Positions 14,899 to 40,118 of a stretch of DNA of 40,275 bases are shown here, piece after piece. Both the position numbers and the translations under genes were made by a program. The stretch is from Paludibacteraceae bacterium. Lineage in GTDB: Bacteria > Bacteroidota > Bacteroidia > Bacteroidales > Paludibacteraceae. Below the pieces are notes generated by a model. It was not told the DNA's origin. It searched no databases and was given only the letters and a program-made list of their open reading frames with translations. The DNA is taken from the NCBI GenBank assembly GCA_017478725.1, contig JAFVDD010000016.1, positions 1 through 40,275 on the forward strand. The letters run 5' to 3'. Each line of letters starts with the position of its first letter. Position 1 is the stretch's first letter.

Positions 14899-15684
14899 AT
14901 GAACCCGGGTTTTCAGTTCAAGCAGTTCTATGTGCGGCATGAACGCTGCGCCATGAAGGTGGGCACCGACGGTGTTCTGCTTGGCGCATGGACACCTATA
15001 ATGGAAGAATGGCGGATGGCAGATGGCGGAAACACGCGCGTGCTGGATGTGGGCACCGGTTCCGGATTAGTGGCACTGATGCTTGCGCAACGCTTGCCCC
15101 AAGCGCAGATTGACGCTATCGACATAGATGCATCGGCGGTAGAGCAAGCCGGAGAGAATTTTGCTTCCTCGCCTTGGCCCGATCGCCTGCAAGCCTGTCT
15201 CTCACCCTTGCAAACATGGCAAACGAGCAAATATGAAAATGAGAAAATAAGTAAATGCTATTCCCTCATTGTTTCCAACCCGCCCTATTTCCAACACAGC
15301 CTCAAAAACCCCGACAAAGGGCGTGAGTTGGCGCGTCATACGGACAGTCTGTCCTACGAAGAACTGATACATCATAGCGCGCGGCTTCTGCGCAACGACG
15401 GCATATTGGCGCTTATACTGCCTGCCGGAGCGGAGAAAGAGATCTGCGCTCTCGCCCGGACTGAAGGTCTCACTCCTACGCACCTTACCCGCGTTTATAG
15501 CAAGGCCTCCAAACCTGTTAGGAGAGTGTTGATTGCTTTCGTCATGTCCTCATGTCCTCATAACGTCATGTCGTCATGTCGTCATGACGAGATCACATCC
15601 CTTGAAAACTCCCTCATTCTGGAAAACGAAACAGGCGGCCGTTCCGCCGCCTATCAACAATTAACAAAGGACTTCTACCTATAG
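14899..15684 (+). CDS. trmN6: tRNA1(Val) (adenine37-N6)-methyltransferase
   Basis: An AdoMet-dependent Rossmann methyltransferase that makes m6A at position 37 of tRNA-Val in E. coli (YfiC). I see FQFKQFYVRHERCAMKVGTDGVLLGAW, the AdoMet loop VLDVGTGSGLVALMLAQR, acidic IDAIDID, the catalytic SNPPYF and the family ending LTKDFYL. ATG 14899 (MNPGFQF) fits the family; ATG 14884 is an alternative five codons longer. Three segments look inserted. A heptamer-coded stretch near residue 40 comes from DNA ggcggat/ggcagat/ggcggaa. Residues about 105-120 come from six AAATGA-type octamers at 15210-15257. Residues 215-230 (VMSSCPHN, VMSSCRHD) come from six octamers at 15541-15588. The last codons form the 5' arm of the terminator. 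Confidence 0.9.
   Translation: MNPGFQFKQFYVRHERCAMKVGTDGVLLGAWTPIMEEWRMADGGNTRVLDVGTGSGLVALMLAQRLPQAQIDAIDIDASAVEQAGENFASSPWPDRLQACLSPLQTWQTSKYENEKISKCYSLIVSNPPYFQHSLKNPDKGRELARHTDSLSYEELIHHSARLLRNDGILALILPAGAEKEICALARTEGLTPTHLTRVYSKASKPVRRVLIAFVMSSCPHNVMSSCRHDEITSLENSLILENETGGRSAAYQQLTKDFYL
15210..15257. repeat. Octamer array (AAATGA type) inside trmN6
   Basis: gcaaacat, ggcaaacg, agcaaata, tgaaaatg, agaaaata, agtaaatg: six 8-bp units between the AdoMet domain strands and the NPPY motif. The same family recurs at 14865 and at 32456. Confidence 0.6.
15541..15588 (+). repeat. Octamer array (GTCATGTC type) inside trmN6
   Basis: gtcatgtc, ctcatgtc, ctcataac, gtcatgtc, gtcatgtc, gtcatgac: six units of the family that forms the array at 19398-19858. 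Three units equal eight codons, giving a repeated octapeptide. Confidence 0.85.
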
Positions 15685-18003: not shown

Positions 18004-18070
18004 CTGATTTCTGACGGCTGATTTCTGACGGCTGATTTCTGACAGCTGATTTCTGACGGCTGATAGCTTA
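18004..18070 (-). repeat. Heptamer array filling the DUF3078 / coiled-coil spacer
   Basis: Nine consecutive 7-bp units, alternating ctgattt and ctgacgg (with ctgacag, ctgatag), end in cttagaa. The array runs exactly from the start codon of the coiled-coil gene to the stop codon of the DUF3078 gene (18068-18070). Confidence 0.9.
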
Positions 18071-19249
18071 GAAACTATATCCTACACCCAGACCGATAAC
18101 GCCCTTGAACTGGCAACGCTCGCTCAGGTTGCCGTCTTTGTCGGCAATCAGCGTTCCGTTGTAGTATTTCAGGCTGGTCGATACGGTCACCTGCAGGCAT
18201 TTCAGGAACTGATAACTCAGCGCGCAGTCCCAGTCAACATCAAAATGACCGAAGTAACGGTTGTTGTTCGAATACTCGAAATAGTTCGCATTCACATCGC
18301 GGCTGGCCCACGAACCGGCACCGTTATTGGCCTCGTAAATATCCTTCAGGCTGAAGCCTTTGCCCTGATACGGGGTGAAAAGTCCCAGTGTCGTGCTCAG
18401 TTTCAAGTCCTTGTACGCATAGGCGATACTTCCCTTGAAGCTCAAACCGAACTCGGCGCGGGCGTTGCGGAACACCTTGTCGCCGTTGTTGTCATAGGTG
18501 TATGTGCCGTATGTGTTCTGCAACTGCGAACGCAAATCCGTTTTGGCTGCCTGTTCAATCTCATAACCGCCTAAATTGTCATACGCATCATAGGCTGCTT
18601 GTGCGGCTGCTTTGGTGGTGGCATCGGCTGCATGATCGATGTCGTACTGCAAGGCGCCCAGCGCTCCTTCACGGGTGTAACGCTGGTTCCATGCCTCACC
18701 GATATAGGCGCTGGTGATACGGCCGGCGATAGGAGACAGATAAATCGAGAAATCAGCACCCTTCACGCTCTTCTTCCAGTCAATACCGACCGAAATATCC
18801 GTGTAACTCGGTGCCAGCCATTTCGAAATGATGTTGTTGTAGCCTTCTACATAATTGCGGCCCAGCGCATACTGGCTCTGGAAACTTCCGTTCACCGTCA
18901 GATACCAAGTCTCCTTGAACTCCCAGCCGAACTTCGTGGCCAGCTTGATATTGTCGCTCGATTTCTGGAAAGCGTCTTCCTTCTGGTCAATCCATGTCAA
19001 TCCGAAATCCGTATCGAAATTGGTTTCCCAAGCGATTGCATTCTTGTGGTACAACAGGTGAAGCTTGCCGTAAGCAAAGCCGTTCACGTTGTTCTTACCG
19101 CCGGCAGACCAGTTCACCAAACCCGTCGCAGCGGCGTTCAGACCTACTGTTCCGTCAAATTTCCAGGCTTTCTCTGCTGCCTCTTCCTGAGCAAATACTG
19201 TCAGCGCCGCCATCATGGCCAACGCCAGAGTAAAGATTTTACGTTGCAT
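18068..19249 (-). CDS. DUF3078 outer-membrane beta-barrel protein
   Basis: A 393-residue protein starting at ATG 19249 (MQRKIFTLALAMMAALTVFAQ, signal peptide); an in-frame TTG six bases upstream is less likely. The mature part has alternating amphipathic strands, aromatic residues and the NWSAGGKNNVNGFAYGKL segment typical of DUF3078 proteins of this phylum, ending in the porin-like GVGYSF. An outer-membrane location is inferred; no transported substrate is known. A second member lies at 33976-35172. Transcription probably starts near 19876 from the promoter at 19883-19914, which gives a leader of about 630 bases containing the whole octamer array. It heads a series with the coiled-coil gene, zapA and rny. 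Confidence 0.85.
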   Translation of the reverse strand: MQRKIFTLALAMMAALTVFAQEEAAEKAWKFDGTVGLNAAATGLVNWSAGGKNNVNGFAYGKLHLLYHKNAIAWETNFDTDFGLTWIDQKEDAFQKSSDNIKLATKFGWEFKETWYLTVNGSFQSQYALGRNYVEGYNNIISKWLAPSYTDISVGIDWKKSVKGADFSIYLSPIAGRITSAYIGEAWNQRYTREGALGALQYDIDHAADATTKAAAQAAYDAYDNLGGYEIEQAAKTDLRSQLQNTYGTYTYDNNGDKVFRNARAEFGLSFKGSIAYAYKDLKLSTTLGLFTPYQGKGFSLKDIYEANNGAGSWASRDVNANYFEYSNNNRYFGHFDVDWDCALSYQFLKCLQVTVSTSLKYYNGTLIADKDGNLSERCQFKGVIGLGVGYSF

Positions 19250-19339
19250 ATTCAAAATAAGATTTTGTTTGTTATTGTTTATTGTTATGATTGTTGTTAT
19301 GCTTGTCGTTATGTTGTCTCTCTCCCTATCTTCCTCCCT

Positions 19340-19397: not shown

Positions 19398-19858
19398 GCC
19401 GTTATGTCGTCGCGCCGTTATGTCGTCGTGTCGTTGCGTCGTTGCGTCGTCATGTCGTCTGTCGTCTGTCGTTATGTCGTCGTGTCGTCTGTCGTTATGT
19501 CGTCATGTCGTCGTGTCGTCGTGTCGTCATGTCGTTGCGTCGTCATGTCGTTGCGTCGTTATGTCGTTGTGTCGTCGTGTCGTCATGTCGTCATGTCGTT
19601 GCGTCGTTATGTCGTCATGTCGTTGCGTCGTTATGTCGTCGCGTCGTCATGTCGTTGCGTCGTCATGTCGTTGTGTCGTTATGTCGTCGTGTCGTTCGTG
19701 TCGTTCGTTTCGCCGCGCCGTTATGTCGTCTGTCGTCGCGTCGTTGCGCCGTTGTGTCGTCTGTCGTCGCGTCGTCGTGTCGTTCGTGTCGTCGCGTCGT
19801 CATGTCGTTGCGTCGTTATGTCGTTGTGTCGTCGTGTCGTCATGTCGTCTGTCGTTGT
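19398..19858 (+). repeat. Large octamer array, about 57 units of GTCGT(C/T)(AT/GT/GC)
   Basis: Lies in the gene-free kilobase 19250-20287. From 19398 to 19858 almost every unit is GTCG-T-C/T followed by AT, GT or GC; some are cut to 7 bp (gtcgtct, gtcgttc) and two are about 9-10 bp. All three plus-strand frames are open through it, while the minus strand has frequent stops. There are no spacers and no flanking cas genes, so it is not a CRISPR array. The left part of the region (19250-19330) is T-rich with gttatg/gttgtt variants. Confidence 0.9.
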
Positions 19859-19882
19859 GCCCACGCTCGCACAATTTGGCTG

Positions 19883-32487: not shown

Positions 32488-33416
32488 AAGATTTACGAAT
32501 CATATTCTTAGGTACGCCGGAGTTTGCTACGGCGAGCCTGCGTGCTTTGGTAGAAGGCGGCTACAACGTGGTTGCCGTAGTTACCATGCCCGACAAACCG
32601 GCAGGACGAGGCCATCAGCTCCAGTTCTCGGATGTCAAGAAATACGCGCTCTCGGTCGGTCTGCCAGTTCTGCAACCGGAGAGACTGAAGGACGAAGCGT
32701 TCGTTGAGCAACTGCGTTCTTATCACGCCGACCTGCAAATAGTGGTGGCATTCCGTATGCTGCCCGAAATCGTTTGGGCGATGCCGCGCCTGGGCACATT
32801 CAACCTGCACGCATCGCTTCTGCCCCAATACCGCGGAGCCGCACCGATCAACTGGGCGGTTATCAACGGCGACAAAGAGACCGGCGCGACAACTTTCATG
32901 CTCAAGCATGAGATCGACACTGGCAATCTGATTTTGCAGGAGCGGATACCTGTCGGCGAAGACGAGAATGTCGGTTCTGTTCACGACCGGCTGATGGAGA
33001 TGGGCACCAGCCTCGTCACCCGGACAGTGGATATGATCATTGACTGCGAGAACAATGGCACGCCGCTGCCCACCACTCCGCAACCGGACATAACCGAACT
33101 GCGTCCGGCGCCCAAACTCTTCAAAGAGACCTGCGAGATTCATTTCGACAGAATGACCGCCGACGAAGTACATAATTTCGTCCGCGGCTTGAGTCCCTAC
33201 CCTGCCGCATGGGCCAATCTGACCATCAACGGGCAATATTTTGAGAATGTCAAGATTTATAGGGTGGAAGCCGTCAGCTGTCAGAACTCAGCCGCCAGCC
33301 GTCAGCCGGCAGAGATTCTTATCCCCTGCCGCGAGGGTGCTGTGCGCATCCTTGAACTGCAAGCACCCGGCAAGAAACGCATGGACGCAAAATCGTTCCT
33401 GAATGGATTACATTAA
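32478..33416 (+). CDS. fmt: Methionyl-tRNA formyltransferase
   Basis: Formylates initiator Met-tRNA using 10-formyltetrahydrofolate. 312 residues. N-terminal domain: FLGTPEFATASLRAL, FNLHASLLPQYRGAAPINWAV with the catalytic Asn-His, and the HEIDTGNLI loop. The C-terminal OB-like domain has GLSPYPAAW. Residues about 265-278 (VEAVSCQNSAASRQPAE region) are coded by six heptamers at 33270-33311, an in-frame repeat insertion. It starts within the lgt stop (4-base overlap) and its own 3' end overlaps the HD-domain gene by 14 bases. Confidence 0.97.
   Translation: MTKQDLRIIFLGTPEFATASLRALVEGGYNVVAVVTMPDKPAGRGHQLQFSDVKKYALSVGLPVLQPERLKDEAFVEQLRSYHADLQIVVAFRMLPEIVWAMPRLGTFNLHASLLPQYRGAAPINWAVINGDKETGATTFMLKHEIDTGNLILQERIPVGEDENVGSVHDRLMEMGTSLVTRTVDMIIDCENNGTPLPTTPQPDITELRPAPKLFKETCEIHFDRMTADEVHNFVRGLSPYPAAWANLTINGQYFENVKIYRVEAVSCQNSAASRQPAEILIPCREGAVRILELQAPGKKRMDAKSFLNGLH
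33270..33311 (+). repeat. Heptamer array inside fmt
   Basis: gccgtca, gctgtca, gaactca, gccgcca, gccgtca, gccggca: six 7-bp units, the reverse complement form of the TGACGGC family, read in frame as AVSCQNSAASRQPA. Confidence 0.8.
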
Positions 33417-33951
33417 GCTCATAGACAAGTACTACGCCGGCCAGCCGGAGTTGCGACATATACTGGTGACACATAGCCGCCAGGTGGCAGACCGTGCCTT
33501 AGCCGTCCTTGATGCCCACCCGCAATGGGAAGCCGAGGGATGGGTGGACCGCACGTTTGTAGAAGAGGCCGCTATGCTTCACGACATCGGTATTATCTAT
33601 TGCAACGCACCGAAAATATACTGCAACGGTCCTCACCTGTATATCGAGCACGGCTATCTGGGTGCCGAACTGCTACGGGCGGAAGGGCTGCCCAAGCATG
33701 CGCTGGTAGCCGAACGGCATACGGGAACAGGAATCACCATTGACCAGATTGAGCGCGACGAATTGCCGATACCCGAGCGCAACTATTGCCCGCAGACGAT
33801 TGAAGAGAAAGTGATCTGCTACGCCGACAAATTCTATTCGAAAAGCCACCTCGGCGAAGAAGTGGCTCTCGACAAAATCAAGTATAACATCTGGAAATAC
33901 GGCTCCGAGGCTTTCCAGCGCTGGCAGGAGCTGGTTGCACTCTGCGGCTGA
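33403..33951 (+). CDS. HD-domain phosphohydrolase-like protein
   Basis: A 182-residue soluble protein. The metal site of the HD superfamily is visible as an early H (THSRQVADRAL) and H-D in EEAAMLHDIGIIYC, with later histidines (IEHGYLGAELL; ERHTGTGI) and an aspartate in CYADKFYSK. Small proteins of this type are predicted metal-dependent phosphohydrolases, some acting on nucleotides; the substrate here is unknown. It overlaps fmt by 14 bases, which suggests coupled translation. Its TGA stop lies in the first unit of the heptamer array 33947-33978. Confidence 0.88.
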   Translation: MDYIKLIDKYYAGQPELRHILVTHSRQVADRALAVLDAHPQWEAEGWVDRTFVEEAAMLHDIGIIYCNAPKIYCNGPHLYIEHGYLGAELLRAEGLPKHALVAERHTGTGITIDQIERDELPIPERNYCPQTIEEKVICYADKFYSKSHLGEEVALDKIKYNIWKYGSEAFQRWQELVALCG

Positions 33952-33978
33952 ATGCTGATAGCTGATGGCTGACGGCTA
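33947..33978. repeat. Heptamer array between two convergent stop codons
   Basis: ggctgaa, then gctgata, gctgatg, gctgacg, gctaccg. The TGA of the HD gene (33949-33951) and the TAG of the minus-strand DUF3078 gene (33976-33978) both lie in array units. Confidence 0.85.
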
Positions 33979-35172
33979 CCGGAACTTATGCGCAAAACCG
34001 ATTGAGATCATTTCGCGGAACTGTATCTTGGCATGATTGTCGCCCGACATGATAACCGACGAATCATAGCGCGGATGGATGATTGCCCGGGCAGAGAAGA
34101 AGCGGTTGATGATAAAATCACAGTTTATTTCCAGATCCAGTTCCACATGGTGATAGTTGGTGTACATATAGAACTTGCCGTCCAACTGCACCTCACGCAC
34201 AGGTTTCCATTTATATTCCACACGCACACTGCTACCGATGTTATGCTGTGTGCGCTGGCCAAGCTCCAGACCATAGTCGGTCGCCAGCACATGCACGGTG
34301 TCGTTCACATGGATCAGTTTGTACGCCAGCGGTGAGACCGATATACTCAAATCCTTGACAGGCTTGAAATCCACACCCACTGCGGCATTGAAACGCAACG
34401 GTGAGAACGGAGCCGATTTCATCTCCATGGAGTTGGATTTATAGGTCGGCAGAAAGCGCGTCTCAAACTCCGCGGAGACGGATGCAAAGATTTTGGGCAC
34501 CACCCTGAGGTTCGCTTTGCTGTACAAGCGGAACATATCATCGGTGGTGTTCACCTTATGGAGCGTATCGGCCGAGACCGTTGAACCGCCCATCCGCCAT
34601 TCGCCCGTATTCTCCCATGTAAAGCGGTCAGAGATATAATTGACCTGCCCTTTGGCTATACCCATTGCCGCAAAACTGGACGAACCGCCTTGGTACCAGT
34701 TAGGCGTGACATAGTTCTGGGTAACCTGCACCATCACAGTCGCTTCCTTGCGCCACGGCGTTTTCATGTTGCGGATAGCACGCAGAACATCATTGCGGTC
34801 CTCTACCTCGTCTTTTATCCATGATTTCTCGATCTCTATAGTAGGTATCTTGTTTTCTACCACCTCGCGGAACTGTGCGTTCATCACACGGATGGAGTCA
34901 ATCCGCGCTTCTTCGCGCTGGAGCGAGTCAATGAGCATCTGCTCCTCGGGCGTGAGCGCATAAGCGCTGTCGCCTTCATGCAGCTCGACGCTCTGCTTGT
35001 TCACCAGATCCAGCAGCAGCAGATCTATATCTGCCGTACCTCGCTGTTCATTCAGCCGGAAGGTGTCCGGATGCAGGCGTACCACCTCCGGTACAGAATC
35101 CGTTTGCGCCGCCAGATGGGTGGCGGCGCAAAGAACTGTCAGTACTATGTAGAGAAACTTAAATTCCCGCAT
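33976..35172 (-). CDS. DUF3078-like outer-membrane protein (second copy)
   Basis: 398 residues with a signal peptide ([23 protein letters not shown]), an N-terminal periplasmic part rich in charged residues (about 24-140, possibly helical), and a C-terminal beta-barrel-like half. The barrel part has [21 protein letters not shown], the same NW-x-GG hallmark as the DUF3078 protein at 18068-19249, and ends in FAHKFR with an aromatic near the C-terminus. The start codon overlaps the secA 3' end by 14 bases, so its translation is probably coupled to SecA. Transport function unknown. Confidence 0.83.
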
Positions 35173-38100
35173 TCAGTTTACCGTGGCATTGTTTGTATTT
35201 CTTGCCGCTGCCGCATGGGCAAGGATCGTTCGGACGCGGTTTTTTGTCCACATGAATAGGCTCCGGGCGGGCATTCTCGCGTGTATCTCTGCCTGCTGCC
35301 GCAGCTGCACCGGAAGCCTGAGCCGCCTGCTGCACCGCATCTTTCTGCGTGCGGTAACGGCTGTAGTCCATTCGCCGCTGCTGCTGCGCCTGCTGTACAC
35401 GGTCGGGCTCCTGCGTATGGATCTGACCGCGAAGGAGAATAGCTATCGCACGGCGGTTGAGATTGTCCAGCATGCCCTTGAAGATATTGAACGACTCCAG
35501 CTTGTAAATCAACAGCGGGTCTTTCTGCTCGTACGAAGCGTTCTGCACACTCTGTTTCAGATCGTCCAACTGACGCAGATGCTCTTTCCATTCGTCGTCG
35601 ATGACGAAAAGCAGCATTCGCTTCTCAAACTCCTTCACCACCTCCTTGCAATGTGTCTCAGCCGCAGCCTTCAGGTTGACGGCGATGTTATAGACACGCT
35701 TGCCGTCGGTGATAGGAATGAGGATATTCTCATACATCTGGCCTTTGGTCTCAAATACCTGCTGGATGGTCGGGTCAGCCACTTGCATCAGTTTGTCCAT
35801 ACGGCGTTTGAAGCTTTCCAGCGCCGCCTCAGCCAGTTTGTCGCTCAACTCCTGACGTCTGCCACGGCTGAACTCTTCCTCGTCGTACGGCAGCTCGATA
35901 GCAAAGGTCTGCAGCGCATCGGCTTTCAGTCCTTCGTAATCGGCGGCAGACTTGGCATCAGCTACGATATTCTCTGCAATCTCAAAGATCATATTCGTAA
36001 TATCCACGCCGATGCGCTCTCCCATGAGGGCGTGACGACGTTTGCCGTAAATGAGGTTACGCTGCTGGTTCATCACATCGTCATACTCGATCAAGCGCTT
36101 GCGGATACCGAAGTTGTTCTCCTCCACTTTCTTCTGCGCACGCTCGATACTGCTGGATATCATCGAGTGCTCGATCATCTCGCCCTCCTGGAATCCCATA
36201 CGGTCCATGACGCTGGCTATACGCTCGGAGCCGAACATGCGCATCAGGTCATCCTCCAGCGATACATAGAATACCGAACTGCCCGGGTCGCCCTGACGTC
36301 CGGCACGACCGCGCAGCTGCCTGTCCACACGGCGGCTCTCATGCCGCTCGGTACCGATGATAGCCAGACCGCCTGCTTCCTTCACTTCGGGCGTCAGTTT
36401 GATATCCGTACCACGACCTGCCATGTTCGTCGCGATAGTCACTACGCCCGGACGACCGGCTTCGGCTACTATCTGCGCCTCCTGCTGGTGAAGTTTGGCG
36501 TTCAAGACGTTGTGCTTGATCTTGCGGAGGTTCAGCATGCGGCTGAGCAACTCGCTTATCTCCACGCTTGTGGTACCCACCAGCACCGGACGGCCCTGAT
36601 TGACCATGCTCACCACCTCGTCGATAACCGCATTGTATTTCTCGCGTTTGGTGCGATAAATACGGTCGTTCATATCGTTGCGGGCGATAGGTTTGTTGGT
36701 CGGGATAACCACTACATCCAGTTTGTAGATGTTCCAGAACTCACCCGCCTCGGTCTCTGCTGTACCGGTCATACCGGCGAGTTTGTTGTACATACGGAAA
36801 TAGTTCTGCAGCGTGATGGTGGCAAAAGTCTGTGTTGCGCCTTCTACTTTCACGTTCTCCTTAGCTTCCACAGCCTGATGCAGTCCGTCCGACCAGCGGC
36901 GGCCCTCCATCACACGACCCGTCTGCTCATCTACGATCTTCACCTCGCCGCCGTCGATGATGTAATCGACATCTTTCTCAAACAGCGTATAAGCTTTCAG
37001 CAACTGATGAACGGTGTGCACGCGCTCGCTCTTGATACTGTAGTTGGTCAGAATATCGTCTTTCTTCTGCTGCGCTTCTTCGGCTGATAGCTGACGGCTG
37101 ACAACTGATTGCTCCACCTCCGCCATCTCGCTTCCCACATCCGGCAGCACAAAGAAATTCGGGTCGTCGGTTGTACCCGTAAGGGCGTCAATACCCTTGT
37201 CGGTCAACTCAATCGACTTGTTCTTCTCGTCAATCACGAAATAGAGTTCGTCGGTAGCGATGTGCATGTTTTTCTCGTTCTCCTGCAGGTAGAACTCCTC
37301 GGTTTTCTGCATCCGCACTTTCACGCCCGGTTCGCTCAGGTACTTGATCAGCGCCTTGCTTTTCGGCATACCCTTGAACGAACGGAACAAAGCCAGTTCG
37401 CCTGCCTCACGCTCTTTCTCGTCGGCGGAATCCATCTTCGCTTTCGCCTCCGCCAACAGTTTGGTGGTCAGCGTCGTCTGCTGGCGGACCAGCGAAGCTA
37501 CGCGGTCCTTGTATTCGTCGAACATCTGATCCTCGCCGCGGGGCACCGGACCGCTGATGATAAGCGGCGTACGGGCATCGTCGATCAGCACGGAGTCCAC
37601 CTCATCGACGATAGCATAGTTGTGTCCACGCTGTACCAGATCGAGCGGCGAGGTAGCCATGTTATCACGCAGGTAGTCAAAGCCGAACTCGTTGTTGGTA
37701 CCGAAAGTGATATCACAGGCATAAGCCTTGCGGCGCTCGTCGGAGTTAGGACGGTGCTTGTCGATGCAATCCACGGTCAGACCAAGGAACATATAGATCG
37801 GGCCGTTCCACTCGCTATCACGTTTGGCAAGGTAATCGTTCACCGTCACTACGTGAACTCCTTCGTGCGTCAGGGCGTTCAGGTAAACCGGCAGCGTAGC
37901 CACCAGTGTTTTTCCTTCGCCCGTTGCCATCTCGGCAATCTTGCCCTGATGCAGAACCACGCCGCCGAACAGCTGCACGTCGTAGTGAATCATATCCCAG
38001 GTGATCTCGTTGCCACCCGCCATCCAGTGGTTGTGATAGCGGGCTATCAGCTTTGAGCTTTCAGTATTCAGTCCGTCTGATGGCTGATGGCTGATAGCTG

Positions 38101-38560
38101 ACGGCTCTTCAATTATCTCCACGAAATCGAAACGGGGATCGGCTGCCAGATTCTTGTCCATTTCGGTCGCCGTCACCTCCACTGTCTCGTTTTGGGCGAA
38201 ACGGCGGGCAGTCGATTTGACGATAGCATAAGCCTCGGGAAGAATCTCATTGAGCACTTTCTCATACACCTCTTTGATTTCCTTCTCCAGTTTGTCCACG
38301 TCGTTGTAAATCTTCTCACGCTGCTCGATCGGCGTCCCTTCTATCGAGGCCTTCAAACGGCTGATTTCTGATTTCTGACGGCTGACAGCTTCCTGCAACT
38401 TGTCCATCAGCGCCCAACTATGCGCGCGCAGTTCATCGTTGCTCAATTGGTCAATCACCTCGTATTGCGCCTTGATTTGCTCTACGAGCGGCTGGATAGC
38501 ACGCATATCTTTCTGCGCCTTGTTGCCGAACAGTTTGGTAATAAATTCTACAAAATTCAT
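35159..38560 (-). CDS. secA: Preprotein translocase ATPase SecA
   Basis: The motor that drives unfolded preproteins through SecYEG. 1133 residues, in the long range seen in Bacteroidota. Walker A is [14 protein letters not shown] (about 211-224), the DEAD-type motif [20 protein letters not shown], helicase motifs [12 protein letters not shown] and [12 protein letters not shown], and a zinc-binding C-terminus [15 protein letters not shown]. Three stretches are coded by 7-bp repeats and look inserted: residues about 56-67 ([10 protein letters not shown]), 151-171 ([19 protein letters not shown]) and 484-493 (VVSRQLSAE). All lie in segments that vary between species, so function is presumably kept. 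Promoter at 38622-38654; a TTTAACAA octamer array lies in the leader. Confidence 0.98.
37083..37110 (-). repeat. Heptamer insertion 3 in secA
   Basis: gctgata, gctgacg, gctgaca, actgatt; coded on the minus strand as SVVSRQLSA. Confidence 0.8.
38049..38110 (-). repeat. Heptamer insertion 2 in secA
   Basis: agctttg, agctttc, agtattc, agtccgt, then ctgatgg-type units tctgatg, gctgatg, gctgata, gctgacg. About nine units, equal to 21 residues between the strand ending FVEIIEE and the conserved [17 protein letters not shown]. Confidence 0.75.
38361..38395 (-). repeat. Heptamer insertion 1 in secA
   Basis: ctgattt, ctgattt, ctgacgg, ctgacag, cttcctg: five units in the N-terminal helical region. 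Confidence 0.75.
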
Positions 38561-38570
38561 ATCTTGTTTC

Positions 38571-38602
38571 TAACAATTTAACAATTTAACGGTTTAATGT
38601 GC
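38571..38602. repeat. TAACAATT octamers in the secA leader
   Basis: taacaatt, taacaatt, taacggtt, taatgtgc immediately upstream of secA. Confidence 0.65.
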
Positions 38603-38621
38603 TTAGCACATAAAATGCGGT

Positions 38622-38654
38622 GCAAAATTACAAAAAAAAATCCATATATGCAAA
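38622..38654 (-). promoter_or_regulatory. secA promoter
   Basis: Minus strand: TTTG (38651-38654), 20 bases, TAATTTTG (38623-38630). Leader of about 55 bases. Confidence 0.75.
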
Positions 38655-38670
38655 TACAAAATGCATACCG

Positions 38671-38696
38671 AAAGAAAAAACTGCCATTTTGGCAGC
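38671..38696 (-). terminator. Terminator after trpB
   Basis: Stem CTGCCA/TGGCAG with a 3-base loop, then TTTTTTCTTT on the minus strand. The plus side is also T-rich. Confidence 0.7.
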
Positions 38697-38733
38697 TTTT
38701 CCCTCTTTCTTTTAGCCTTTCTGAGCCCATGGC

Positions 38734-38780
38734 CGTGATAGCTGATAGCTGATGGCTGATAGCTGACGGCTGACAGCTTA
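38734..38780 (-). repeat. Heptamer array after trpB
   Basis: gctgata, gctgatg, gctgata, gctgacg, gctgaca, gcttacc. It ends in the trpB stop codon (38778-38780). Confidence 0.9.
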
Positions 38781-40118
38781 CCCCTTATATTCAAAATCCT
38801 GCAAATCGCCGTTCAGGAAACTGTCGTAGGCCGTCATGTCGATCAAGCCGTGACCGCTGAGGTTGAACAGAATAACCTTTTCCTCGCCGGTTTCTTTGCA
38901 TTTCTGAGCCTCGCGGATGGTGGCGGCTATGGCGTGGCAGCTCTCCGGCGCAGGGATGATACCCTCGGTCTGCGCAAACAGCATACCTGCCTTGAACGAC
39001 TCCAGCTGAGGTATATCCACGCCGCGCATCAGGCCGTCTTTGACCAGCTGGCTTACTATTGTTCCGGCGCCGTGGTAACGCAAACCGCCTGCGTGGATAT
39101 TGGCCGGCTTGAAATCATGGCCCAGCGTGAACATCGGCAGCAACGGCGTATAGCCTGCGCTGTCTCCGAAATCGTACTCAAACTTACCCTTCGTCAGTTT
39201 CGGGCAACTGCTCGGTTCCGCCGCAATAAAATCAATCTTGGGGGCTGATGGCTGATGGCTGACGGCTGAGAGCTGGTGTCTCATGAACGGAAACGCCAGA
39301 CCGCCGAAGTTGCTTCCTCCGCCGAAACAGGCTATCACGATGTCGGGATACTCGCCGGCTTTAGCCATCTGTTTTTCAGCCTCCAAACCGATGATAGTCT
39401 GATGCAGGCTCACATGGTTAAGCACCGAACCCAGCGTGTATTTGCAGTTGGGTGTGGTGGTGGCTAACTCAATAGCCTCGCTGATAGCCGTTCCTAAGGA
39501 ACCCGGGTGAAGCGGATCCTTGGTGATGATGTCTTTTCCCGCACGCGTACTCATCGAAGGCGAACCTTCCACAGTAGCGCCGAAGGTACGCATGATACTG
39601 CTGCGGTAGGGCTTTTGCTGCATGGATATTTTCACCTGATACACAGCACATTCCAGCCCGAAAGTCTTGGCGGCATAACTCAGCGCTGCGCCCCACTGGC
39701 CGGCACCTGTCTCCGTTGTCACGTTCGTCGTGCCTTCCTGCTTGCAGTAATAGCACTGCGGCAACGCGGAGTTGATCTTGTGCGAACCTAACGGATTAAC
39801 GCTCTCGTTCTTAAAATAAATATGCGCAGGCGTGCCTAACGCCTCTTCCAGCGCGTAGGCGCGTACCAGCGGAGTCGAGCGGTAGGATTTGTATCGCTCC
39901 AGCACCTCCGCAGGGATGTCGATCCATGCGTGCTCCTGGTCCAATTCCTGTTTGGCGCACTCGGCAGCAAAAATATGTGCCAGGTCATCCGCATTCAGCG
40001 GTTGCTTGGTGGCAGGATGAATAGGAGGCAGCGGTTTGTTGACCATCTCTGCCTGAATATTATACCACTGGCGAGGCAACTCATCCTCGTTCAGCAAAAA
40101 ACGTTTCTGTCTTTCCAT
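38778..40118 (-). CDS. trpB: Tryptophan synthase beta chain-like protein (TrpB2 type)
   Basis: A PLP enzyme that makes tryptophan from indole and serine. 446 residues, longer than the alpha-dependent TrpB1 and matching the TrpB2 group, whose N-terminal extension (LPRQWYNIQAEM, PLPPIHPATKQPL) is present. PLP lysine K114 in NPLGSHKINSALPQ, ETGAGQWGAALSYA, the phosphate loop CFGGGSNFGG and a C-terminal SGHGLIDM. No trpA or other trp gene is nearby, consistent with a stand-alone TrpB2 role such as indole salvage. Residues about 281-292 (LSAVSHQPSAP) are coded by heptamers at 39244-39278. Promoter at 40191-40222, terminator at 38671-38696, so it is probably monocistronic. Confidence 0.95.
   Translation of the reverse strand: MERQKRFLLNEDELPRQWYNIQAEMVNKPLPPIHPATKQPLNADDLAHIFAAECAKQELDQEHAWIDIPAEVLERYKSYRSTPLVRAYALEEALGTPAHIYFKNESVNPLGSHKINSALPQCYYCKQEGTTNVTTETGAGQWGAALSYAAKTFGLECAVYQVKISMQQKPYRSSIMRTFGATVEGSPSMSTRAGKDIITKDPLHPGSLGTAISEAIELATTTPNCKYTLGSVLNHVSLHQTIIGLEAEKQMAKAGEYPDIVIACFGGGSNFGGLAFPFMRHQLSAVSHQPSAPKIDFIAAEPSSCPKLTKGKFEYDFGDSAGYTPLLPMFTLGHDFKPANIHAGGLRYHGAGTIVSQLVKDGLMRGVDIPQLESFKAGMLFAQTEGIIPAPESCHAIAATIREAQKCKETGEEKVILFNLSGHGLIDMTAYDSFLNGDLQDFEYKG
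39244..39278 (-). repeat. Heptamer insertion in trpB
   Basis: gctgatg, gctgatg, gctgacg, gctgaga, gctggtg: five units read on the minus strand as HQLSAVSHQPSA, between the conserved GGLAFPFMR and DFIAAEPSSCP. Confidence 0.85.

Follow-up and report, generated by a model that had tools for sequence, protein, structure and literature searches.

Heptanucleotide Repeats in Frame at Variable Loops of Core Proteins in a Paludibacteraceae Bacterium and Its Congeners

The 40,275-nucleotide stretch of DNA analysed here (the window; positions 1 to 40,275 of contig JAFVDD010000016.1, assembly GCA_017478725.1, from a Paludibacteraceae bacterium) raises the question of how tandem 7-bp units of the form CTGAYRG come to be read in frame inside genes for basic functions. 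A first-pass annotation of the window had described five such segments, three in secA and one each in trpB and fmt, and all five are present where it placed them with the translations that it gave (Table 1). Many species of the same genus carry differing 7-bp repeats, less often 8-bp repeats or hairpins, in frame at variable loops of core proteins. The CTGAYRG arrays are, on a modest balance of the evidence, dispersed heptanucleotide repeats and the trace of a lineage-wide process that spreads repeats by copying from existing arrays, followed by selection.

CTGAYRG arrays in the window and the source genome

Under a strict rule (three or more CTGAYRG units, each with one mismatch at most), six arrays were called in the window (33292-33312, 33955-33975, 37084-37111, 38077-38104, 38735-38776 and 39245-39272) versus none in each of 20 windows simulated with a first-order Markov model. 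Exact single units numbered 56 compared to 18.0 (sd 4.7) in the simulations, an approximately threefold excess. The run of CTGATTT and CTGACGG variants at SecA amino acids (aa) 58-68 escapes the strict pattern. The segment at SecA ~aa 151-171, described at first as tandem heptamers, is a composite in which forward units follow units of opposite orientation (CTATCAG CTTTGAG CTTTCAG TATTCAG); it encodes SAISHQPS from SecA aa 154. The gene annotated as trpB is more exactly TrpB-like. Relative to the modal allele length, the segments at SecA aa 486-493, SecA ~aa 151-171 and the TrpB-like LSAVSHQPSA are longer by 3, 19 and 6 aa, respectively. Forward units bring TGA in a rotating frame, so that arrays of at least three full units are readable only from the opposite strand; the antisense placement of all genic arrays is therefore forced by the sequence and provides no independent evidence.

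The source assembly comprises 2.16 Mb in 60 contigs and is 84% complete. The three-unit pattern CTGAYRGCTGAYRGCTGAY gave 85 exact matches genome-wide and none for the reversed control, bearing out the expectation that the heptamer is enriched throughout the genome. Grouping of the matches yielded 55 distinct arrays, 28 of which have a neighbor within 5 kb versus 12.0 expected (maximum 26 in 2000 uniform placements). The 32 stretches around matches and the window, together 308 kb, were scanned with a looser definition that yielded 78 arrays of 21-56 bp each. The arrays inside open reading frames (ORFs) of at least 150 aa, 56 of the 78, are distributed over 42 ORFs, many more than the three genes first noticed, and with a stricter set of non-overlapping genes 52 of the 78 are genic at a coding fraction of 0.82. 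Outside the window, 35 of the 39 array-bearing ORFs have a Pfam match and four have none. The matches include peptidyl-tRNA hydrolase, signal peptidase, DapA (DHDPS), DapB and RsgA; UvrA with five arrays, MraW/RsmH and LepA; two ORFs of the pyruvate:ferredoxin oxidoreductase type, DXP reductoisomerase, fumarase and RecG; a RecF/SMC-type ATPase, taken as RecF, with three arrays; AlaRS, PdxA, MutS, NAD-dependent DNA ligase (two) and a poly(A) polymerase/CCA-type enzyme; and dehydroquinate synthase (two), Tex and DHFR. Some of these ORFs look partial (those matching GHL10 and WbqC), so not all 42 are necessarily intact genes. A second recF-like gene at G000:C50:2320-3504 is 82% identical to the array-bearing one and represents either a duplication or a foreign contig.

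The commonest units are CTGACGG, CTGATGG, CTGATAG and CTGACAG. A CTGAYRG match is present in 35 of 101 sampled genomes of the genus, the source included, with dozens in a few and none in 66, and in 10 of 295 genomes sampled at class level, again counting the source. The reversed control pattern is matched in G007 (11) and G454 (9), seemingly by another heptamer family, and exact CTGAYRG matches of three or more units occur in 99 stretches of a viral-contig set (putative phages).

Table 1. Genes and repeat arrays of the window.
Feature	Position	Strand	Assignment or product
fmt, methionyl-tRNA formyltransferase, 312 aa	32478..33416	+	TIGR00460 above cut-off
secA, 1133 aa	35159..38560	-	NF009536 above cut-off
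trpB-like gene, 446 aa	38778..40118	-	TIGR01415 above cut-off
Degenerate CTGAYRG array in fmt (gene +)	33270..33312	-	peptide AVSCQNSAASRQPA, Fmt aa 265-278
CTGAYRG array in secA (gene -)	37083..37111	+	peptide VVSRQLSA, SecA aa 486-493
Composite array in secA	38049..38110	+	four reverse units, spacer TCCGT, four forward units; SecA ~aa 151-171
CTGATTT/CTGACGG variant run in secA	38361..38395	+	SecA aa 58-68
CTGAYRG array in trpB-like gene (gene -)	39244..39278	+	peptide LSAVSHQPSA, aa 283-292
Intergenic CTGAYRG array between two gene ends	33952..33977	+	
Intergenic CTGAYRG array, 6 units, between secA and trpB-like gene	38735..38778	+	adjoins trpB-like stop codon
(CTGATTTCTGACGG)x4.4 dimer array	18004..18064	+	beside end of ORF 18068-19255

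The same loops in congeneric species

Among 178 genomes of the genus, SecA was found in 164 (E ≤1e-100) and the TrpB-like enzyme in 73 (E ≤1e-60). The seven nearest SecA relatives in named genomes, at 87-91% identity, are assigned to Paludibacteraceae or (uncultured) Bacteroidales, and a more distant one to Candidatus Colicola caccequi, of a genus of Paludibacteraceae. SecA and Fmt were aligned from 60 regions and the TrpB-like enzyme from 29 loci, all from other genomes, giving 62 rows for SecA, 56 for Fmt and 31 for the TrpB-like enzyme when the window is included; one genome (G108) enters the SecA and TrpB-like sets twice, with identical DNA counted once. Short and long alleles were scored between fixed anchors for distinct alleles only. 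The TrpB-like loop is represented by 20 short and 8 long alleles, SecA ~aa 483-494 by 44 and 10, and SecA ~aa 151-171 by 32 and 20, with 11 of the latter 20 longer by 4 aa only. The Fmt loop is represented by 8 short and 47 long alleles (n = 55), the long ones often with other repeats. At SecA aa 58-68 the length is constant in all 57 distinct alleles, and because it never varies the run is a replacement and not an insertion; L126 and L127 share the QK-x-EISR part of this segment in DNA that is mostly non-repetitive. The segments thus vary in length and sequence among related species, except for length at aa 58-68. Of the five in-frame insertions proposed in the first-pass annotation, SecA aa 58-68 is not one, and at Fmt either the short or the long allele may be the older.

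The same loops in other species carry unrelated 7-bp repeats, some 8-bp repeats and some hairpins, results which do not agree with a single repeat as first proposed. By eye, among the alleles listed, the long ones contain (ACAATGG)n, (ATGGAAA)n, (GTACAAA)n and CAATCAC/CCATAAC, the octamers CGAAATAT and CTCGAGAC, and GC-rich hairpins. Loops of LigA, RecF and DHFR, compared in the 29 best-scoring other genomes each, likewise show short alleles and other repeats at the array sites (for RecF, among the rows listed), extending the comparison of insertions with relatives to six genes (Fmt, TrpB-like, SecA, LigA, RecF and DHFR). Long alleles account for 7 of 26 distinct alleles at the DHFR loop. Of 30 LigA rows inspected by eye at aa 75-83, 12 are empty and two hold CTGAYRG (the source genome and G064), the remainder being filled with GACAAAG (five), GTACAAA, GTCGAAA and GGTTACG (three each) or a GC-rich hairpin (two). 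GC-rich hairpins of ~30 bp were seen by eye in frame at heptamer loops of LigA (L245, L261), Fmt (L127, L123, L114) and DHFR (L321).

Mapped on solved structures, the TrpB-like insert falls opposite a 10-residue gap in 6hul_B and a 5-residue gap in 4qys_B. The DHFR insert is opposite an 8-residue gap of 8uvz_A directly before the FVIGG strand, and the insert at LigA aa 75 aligns to gaps of 2owo, while no gap was found for LigA aa 399-407 in the alignment to 2owo. For Fmt, the counterpart in 1fmt is a variable part of the C-terminal region, which if anything is the longer of the two. Neither of the two alignments shown for SecA has its segments within the matched blocks; a surface-loop location is predicted for them. 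It is fairly clear that the short allele is the older one at the TrpB-like, SecA, DHFR and LigA aa 75 sites, since short alleles are in the majority or match the solved structures.

The periodicity of the loops was evaluated at eight sites with the source genome left out (143 long and 140 short alleles). Self-identity of the long alleles at lag 7 was 0.398 compared to 0.268 in codon-shuffled copies (nominal z 24) and at lag 14 it was 0.322 (nominal z 9), while short alleles reached 0.283 at lag 7; apart from lag 8, the remaining lags between 3 and 13 were near or under the shuffled values. Selection on the peptide would hardly yield a period of 7, which is not a multiple of 3. Tandem Repeats Finder (TRF), applied to 60 regions from 60 species (839 kb), returned rows most often of period 7 (113), with fewer at periods 11 (31), 8 (24) and 6 (one); rows at 14 (46) and 21 (22) are possibly duplicates of period-7 arrays. 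One Markov-3 control set returned no rows at periods 6, 7, 8, 11 or 14 and one at 21. The 113 period-7 rows comprise 50 different canonical units and are located inside conserved ORFs (34), at their edges (40) or outside them (39).

Turnover at the Fmt loop was evaluated on a SecA tree (FastTree) of 53 species in which 15 of the 50 inner branches are weak; of the 56 Fmt rows, one that was unlabelled (L171) and two with partial SecA (L199, L200) were omitted. With 14 hand-assigned states at least 35 changes are required, a number close to that for 200 label shuffles (mean 38.5, minimum 34). The tree-nearest relative, G140 (L111, 94% SecA identity), differs from the source at every comparable site in SecA, Fmt, LigA and DHFR. 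CTGAYRG inserts are held in common with G055 (L113) and G117 (L200) at SecA aa 486-493 and with G064 at LigA aa 75-83, which favors inheritance over short times.

Array make-up and the origin of the repeats

The identity of adjacent units within arrays was 0.183 compared to 0.166 when shuffled (p 0.26), whereas that of next-but-one units (lag 2) was 0.255 and above shuffles (p 0.002). Words of three units are common to 77 array pairs versus 41.6 shuffled (p 0.003) and words of four units to 5 pairs versus 1.4 (p 0.03). The spacer is less constant than the core CTGA and differs mostly by T/C, then by A/G, also in units beside two-unit seeds. On the left side, two or more phased units of opposite orientation (TCAG) adjoin 3 of the 56 genic and 3 of the 22 non-genic arrays; on the right side they adjoin none of the 78. 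By eye, the right end is mostly C or CT. Three arrays (L201:7251, L202:9364 and L209:1571) have 21-24 bp of left flank in common, and two (L215:4037 and L222:898) have 54 bp in common at 94%. Long flanks copied along with the arrays are not general, in that 80-bp flanks gave 25 BLAST rows, mostly of other repeats or same-gene neighbors. CpG decay was rejected as the source of the Y/R variation in the spacer, CpG not being depleted (observed/expected 1.15 in the window). The hairpin was rejected as a general property, being weak in genes: with 45 bp of flank, genic arrays exceed shuffled sequence only slightly in folding (mean z -0.67), and the value for non-genic arrays is -2.1.

Other short repeats accompany the heptamers. 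The window holds at 19405-19859 a 455-bp array of ~57 octamers of the RYGTCGTY type, the core of which looks fixed while the variable positions are mostly transitional; by eye, the CpG in its TCGT core looks kept. A second dispersed family, of octamer type TCATGTCRYC, is present at 15539-15586 and elsewhere in the genome, where it gave 12 exact three-unit matches, some overlapping, and none for the reversed control.

The mixture of units, the sharing of three- and four-unit words, the common flanks of 20-54 bp, the clustering and the same-length replacement at SecA aa 58-68 favor copying over growth in place. In the route proposed, a 3' end that is broken or stalled would most likely pair with an existing array by a few bases, copy some of its units and return, as in template switching or microhomology repair, so that a short tract of the array comes to lie at a new site. 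The copied tract may later gain or lose units with a 14-bp tendency, and selection would purge frameshifting copies and those that introduce stop codons or strike structured parts. Survivors in genes would hence be net in-frame, in the stop-free orientation and at tolerant loops, and filled loops could later be overwritten by other repeats.

Several results weigh against spread by copying. No donor-acceptor pair of arrays was identified and no insertion between strains was seen. Sharing of two-unit words was not above shuffles (599 versus 550, p 0.17), the sharing of three-unit words could come partly from the 14-bp periodicity, and the unit tests as a whole are limited by the picking of arrays with at most one mismatch per unit. 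Near arrays were no more alike than far ones (0.83 versus 0.92 identical units of 3), which speaks against purely local copying, and the clustering of arrays could mirror tolerance instead of spread. At Fmt the short allele may be derived, because the loops of the two best-matching structures, 1fmt and 4iqf, are about as long as filled ones. With respect to periodicity, the z values overstate certainty, alleles from related species being non-independent, and lag 8 of the long alleles (0.327, z 11) is little above the 0.306 of the short alleles. The 1% threshold for a period in a single allele was passed by only 37 of 150 long alleles, source included (30 of them at period 7), with six more passing for a hairpin and 107 passing neither test, so that many long alleles are short, decayed or of other origin. 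This single-allele test is underpowered, and its null draws on further loops of these genes that themselves hold repeats (8 of 750 segments passed, seven of them at lag 7), so that more weight was given to the aggregate comparison.

Pure local replication slippage, by which chance seeds grow 7 bp at a time in place, is a serious alternative that is nonetheless judged unlikely. A length of 7 nt would suit polymerase slippage and loops of this size escape mismatch repair, and both the dominance of period 7 throughout the genus and the elevated lag-2 identity are as expected from slippage. Yet one unit family occupies ~50 places of the source genome and is without a match in two thirds of the genus genomes sampled, the replacement at SecA aa 58-68 preserved length, and neighboring units are no more alike than units from different arrays. 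The last result led to rejection of single-unit slippage as sufficient and bears on the first-pass proposal of a mobile or slippage-grown repeat, since plain single-unit slippage fails to predict adjacent units as mixed as those between arrays. The idea of heptamer slippage is already in the literature, as cited in the available text of PMC4679880 and PMC4692102.

It is conceivable, although again unlikely, that an undescribed DNA-writing activity of this lineage continually inserts short phased repeats of 7- or 8-bp period, with a fixed core of about four bases and a wobble-like spacer, all over the chromosome, essential genes included, such that loops of core proteins are resampled between species. 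If so, the predominance of transitions in the spacer and the absence of homogenisation inside arrays would point to error-prone templated copying and not to slippage.

An enzyme as writer of the arrays, either a small transposase, a reverse transcriptase or a polymerase resembling a terminal transferase, is doubtful. A dispersed family with a fixed CTGA core and a spacer varying mostly by transitions, the several element types in one lineage, hairpins among them, and two reverse transcriptase matches in the source genome would fit such an enzyme. However, no Y1_Tnp/RAYT match was found in the source genome (an 84% complete assembly), both reverse transcriptases fall below the curated NCBIfam cut-offs (group II, retron, DRT), and no target duplication, which with terminal inverted repeats would mark a MITE, was seen by eye at LigA aa 75, the site compared with empty relatives. 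Matches to Y1_Tnp/RAYT were obtained in 29 of 101 sampled genus genomes, 24 above cut-off. The reverse transcriptases (L323 and L324, on G000 contig C23) have a generic reverse transcriptase as the best PADLOC model. RAYT and reverse transcriptase as drivers found no support, with no link to the repeats seen. One of the reverse transcriptases adjoins a gene with a weak, sub-cut-off Avd match, and a diversity-generating retroelement is possible.

Selection of the inserted peptides or length changes for a function in phase variation, binding or regulation is very improbable: short repeats do cause phase variation elsewhere among bacteria (available text of PMC4679880), but the affected genes encode mostly housekeeping enzymes from many pathways, unrelated peptides occupy the same loops in different species, and a 7-bp change in an essential gene is by reasoning expected to be lethal and not switchable. 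That the segments are ordinary variable protein loops or an assembly artefact is scarcely credible given the lag-7 identity across many separate assemblies and the absence of arrays from simulated controls, even though the sites are generally variable loops and a long Fmt loop is also present in distant relatives.

Relation to known repeats and wider meaning

Short tandemly repeated repetitive (STRR) heptamers of cyanobacteria include copies in rnpB and a tRNA-Leu intron. They resemble the CTGAYRG arrays as heptamers growing in essential genes at tolerant loops and differ in that they reside in RNA genes, the CTGAYRG arrays in protein genes. The first-pass annotation knew of no named family for the repeat; a near relative is in print as the TAACTGA heptamer (a rotation of CTGATAA) of Beggiatoaceae, cyanobacteria and five Bacteroidetes (MacGregor 2015, PMC4679880). 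According to the available text of that paper, forward TAACTGA repeats have stops in all frames and the reverse reads LSVISYQ; the repeats are mostly intergenic and upstream of start codons, and of 169 sets, 24 reach into ORFs, for the most part at their ends or in small hypothetical proteins. As far as described there, the two families are alike in a tandem, dispersed 7-bp unit with a CTGA core, a patchy distribution among relatives and readthrough in reverse only. They are unlike in that the exact TAACTGA unit is rare here (CTGATAA is 4 of 297 units) and in that TAACTGA is mostly intergenic whereas most CTGAYRG arrays counted are genic.

Heptamers are the commonest category of long simple sequence repeats (LSSRs) in most surveyed genomes (Mrazek 2007, as cited in the available text of PMC4679880), and the CTGAYRG arrays are LSSRs as defined by tandem units of 5-11 nt beyond chance length, with 7 nt the commonest. 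The GGGNATC heptamers of Xanthomonas and Nostoc are described as biased to non-coding DNA (PMC4692102, available text). The LSSRs and GGGNATC share with CTGAYRG a dominant period of 7, many copies per genome and variation among relatives, as far as those sources describe them; GGGNATC is G-rich with a non-coding bias whereas CTGAYRG has neither property, the commonest CTGAYRG units containing no run of three or more G per unit, the mark of G-quadruplex heptamers.

The palindromic elements of Rickettsia, to which the effect of the heptamers had been likened, are described as in-frame insertions into many unrelated protein genes, with several families (PMC10969869, available text), and the resemblance holds in each of these respects. 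The Rickettsia elements are palindromes of ~150 bp, whereas the repeats here are mostly tandem arrays of 20-60 bp without a defined element, and the CTGAYRG arrays do not form the one long hairpin characteristic of the former. Frequent replacement of one repeat type by another between species distinguishes the CTGAYRG-bearing genus from the Rickettsia elements as described in that source. No report of in-frame heptamers in Bacteroidales core genes was recognised among the literature matches listed, in a collection with most subscription journals outside its coverage. Heptamer repeats (TAACTGA, GGGNATC) and in-frame colonisation (Rickettsia) are thus known, and no earlier example was found of their combination in core genes at such scale.

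The finding of many core enzymes in which one loop holds unrelated inserts, with empty congeners for comparison, provides a natural replicated experiment on the uptake of non-homologous peptides. For practical purposes, lineage-specific 'insertions' in conserved proteins from such genomes are not to be read as functional domains or clade markers without a check for a period at the DNA level. The old question of why heptamers dominate the simple repeats of bacteria, and how they spread, becomes testable because a comparison at strain level within the genus should catch new insertions. Overall, the results suggest that in this uncultured bacterial group the genes for basic functions are continually remodelled by a process that spreads repeats.

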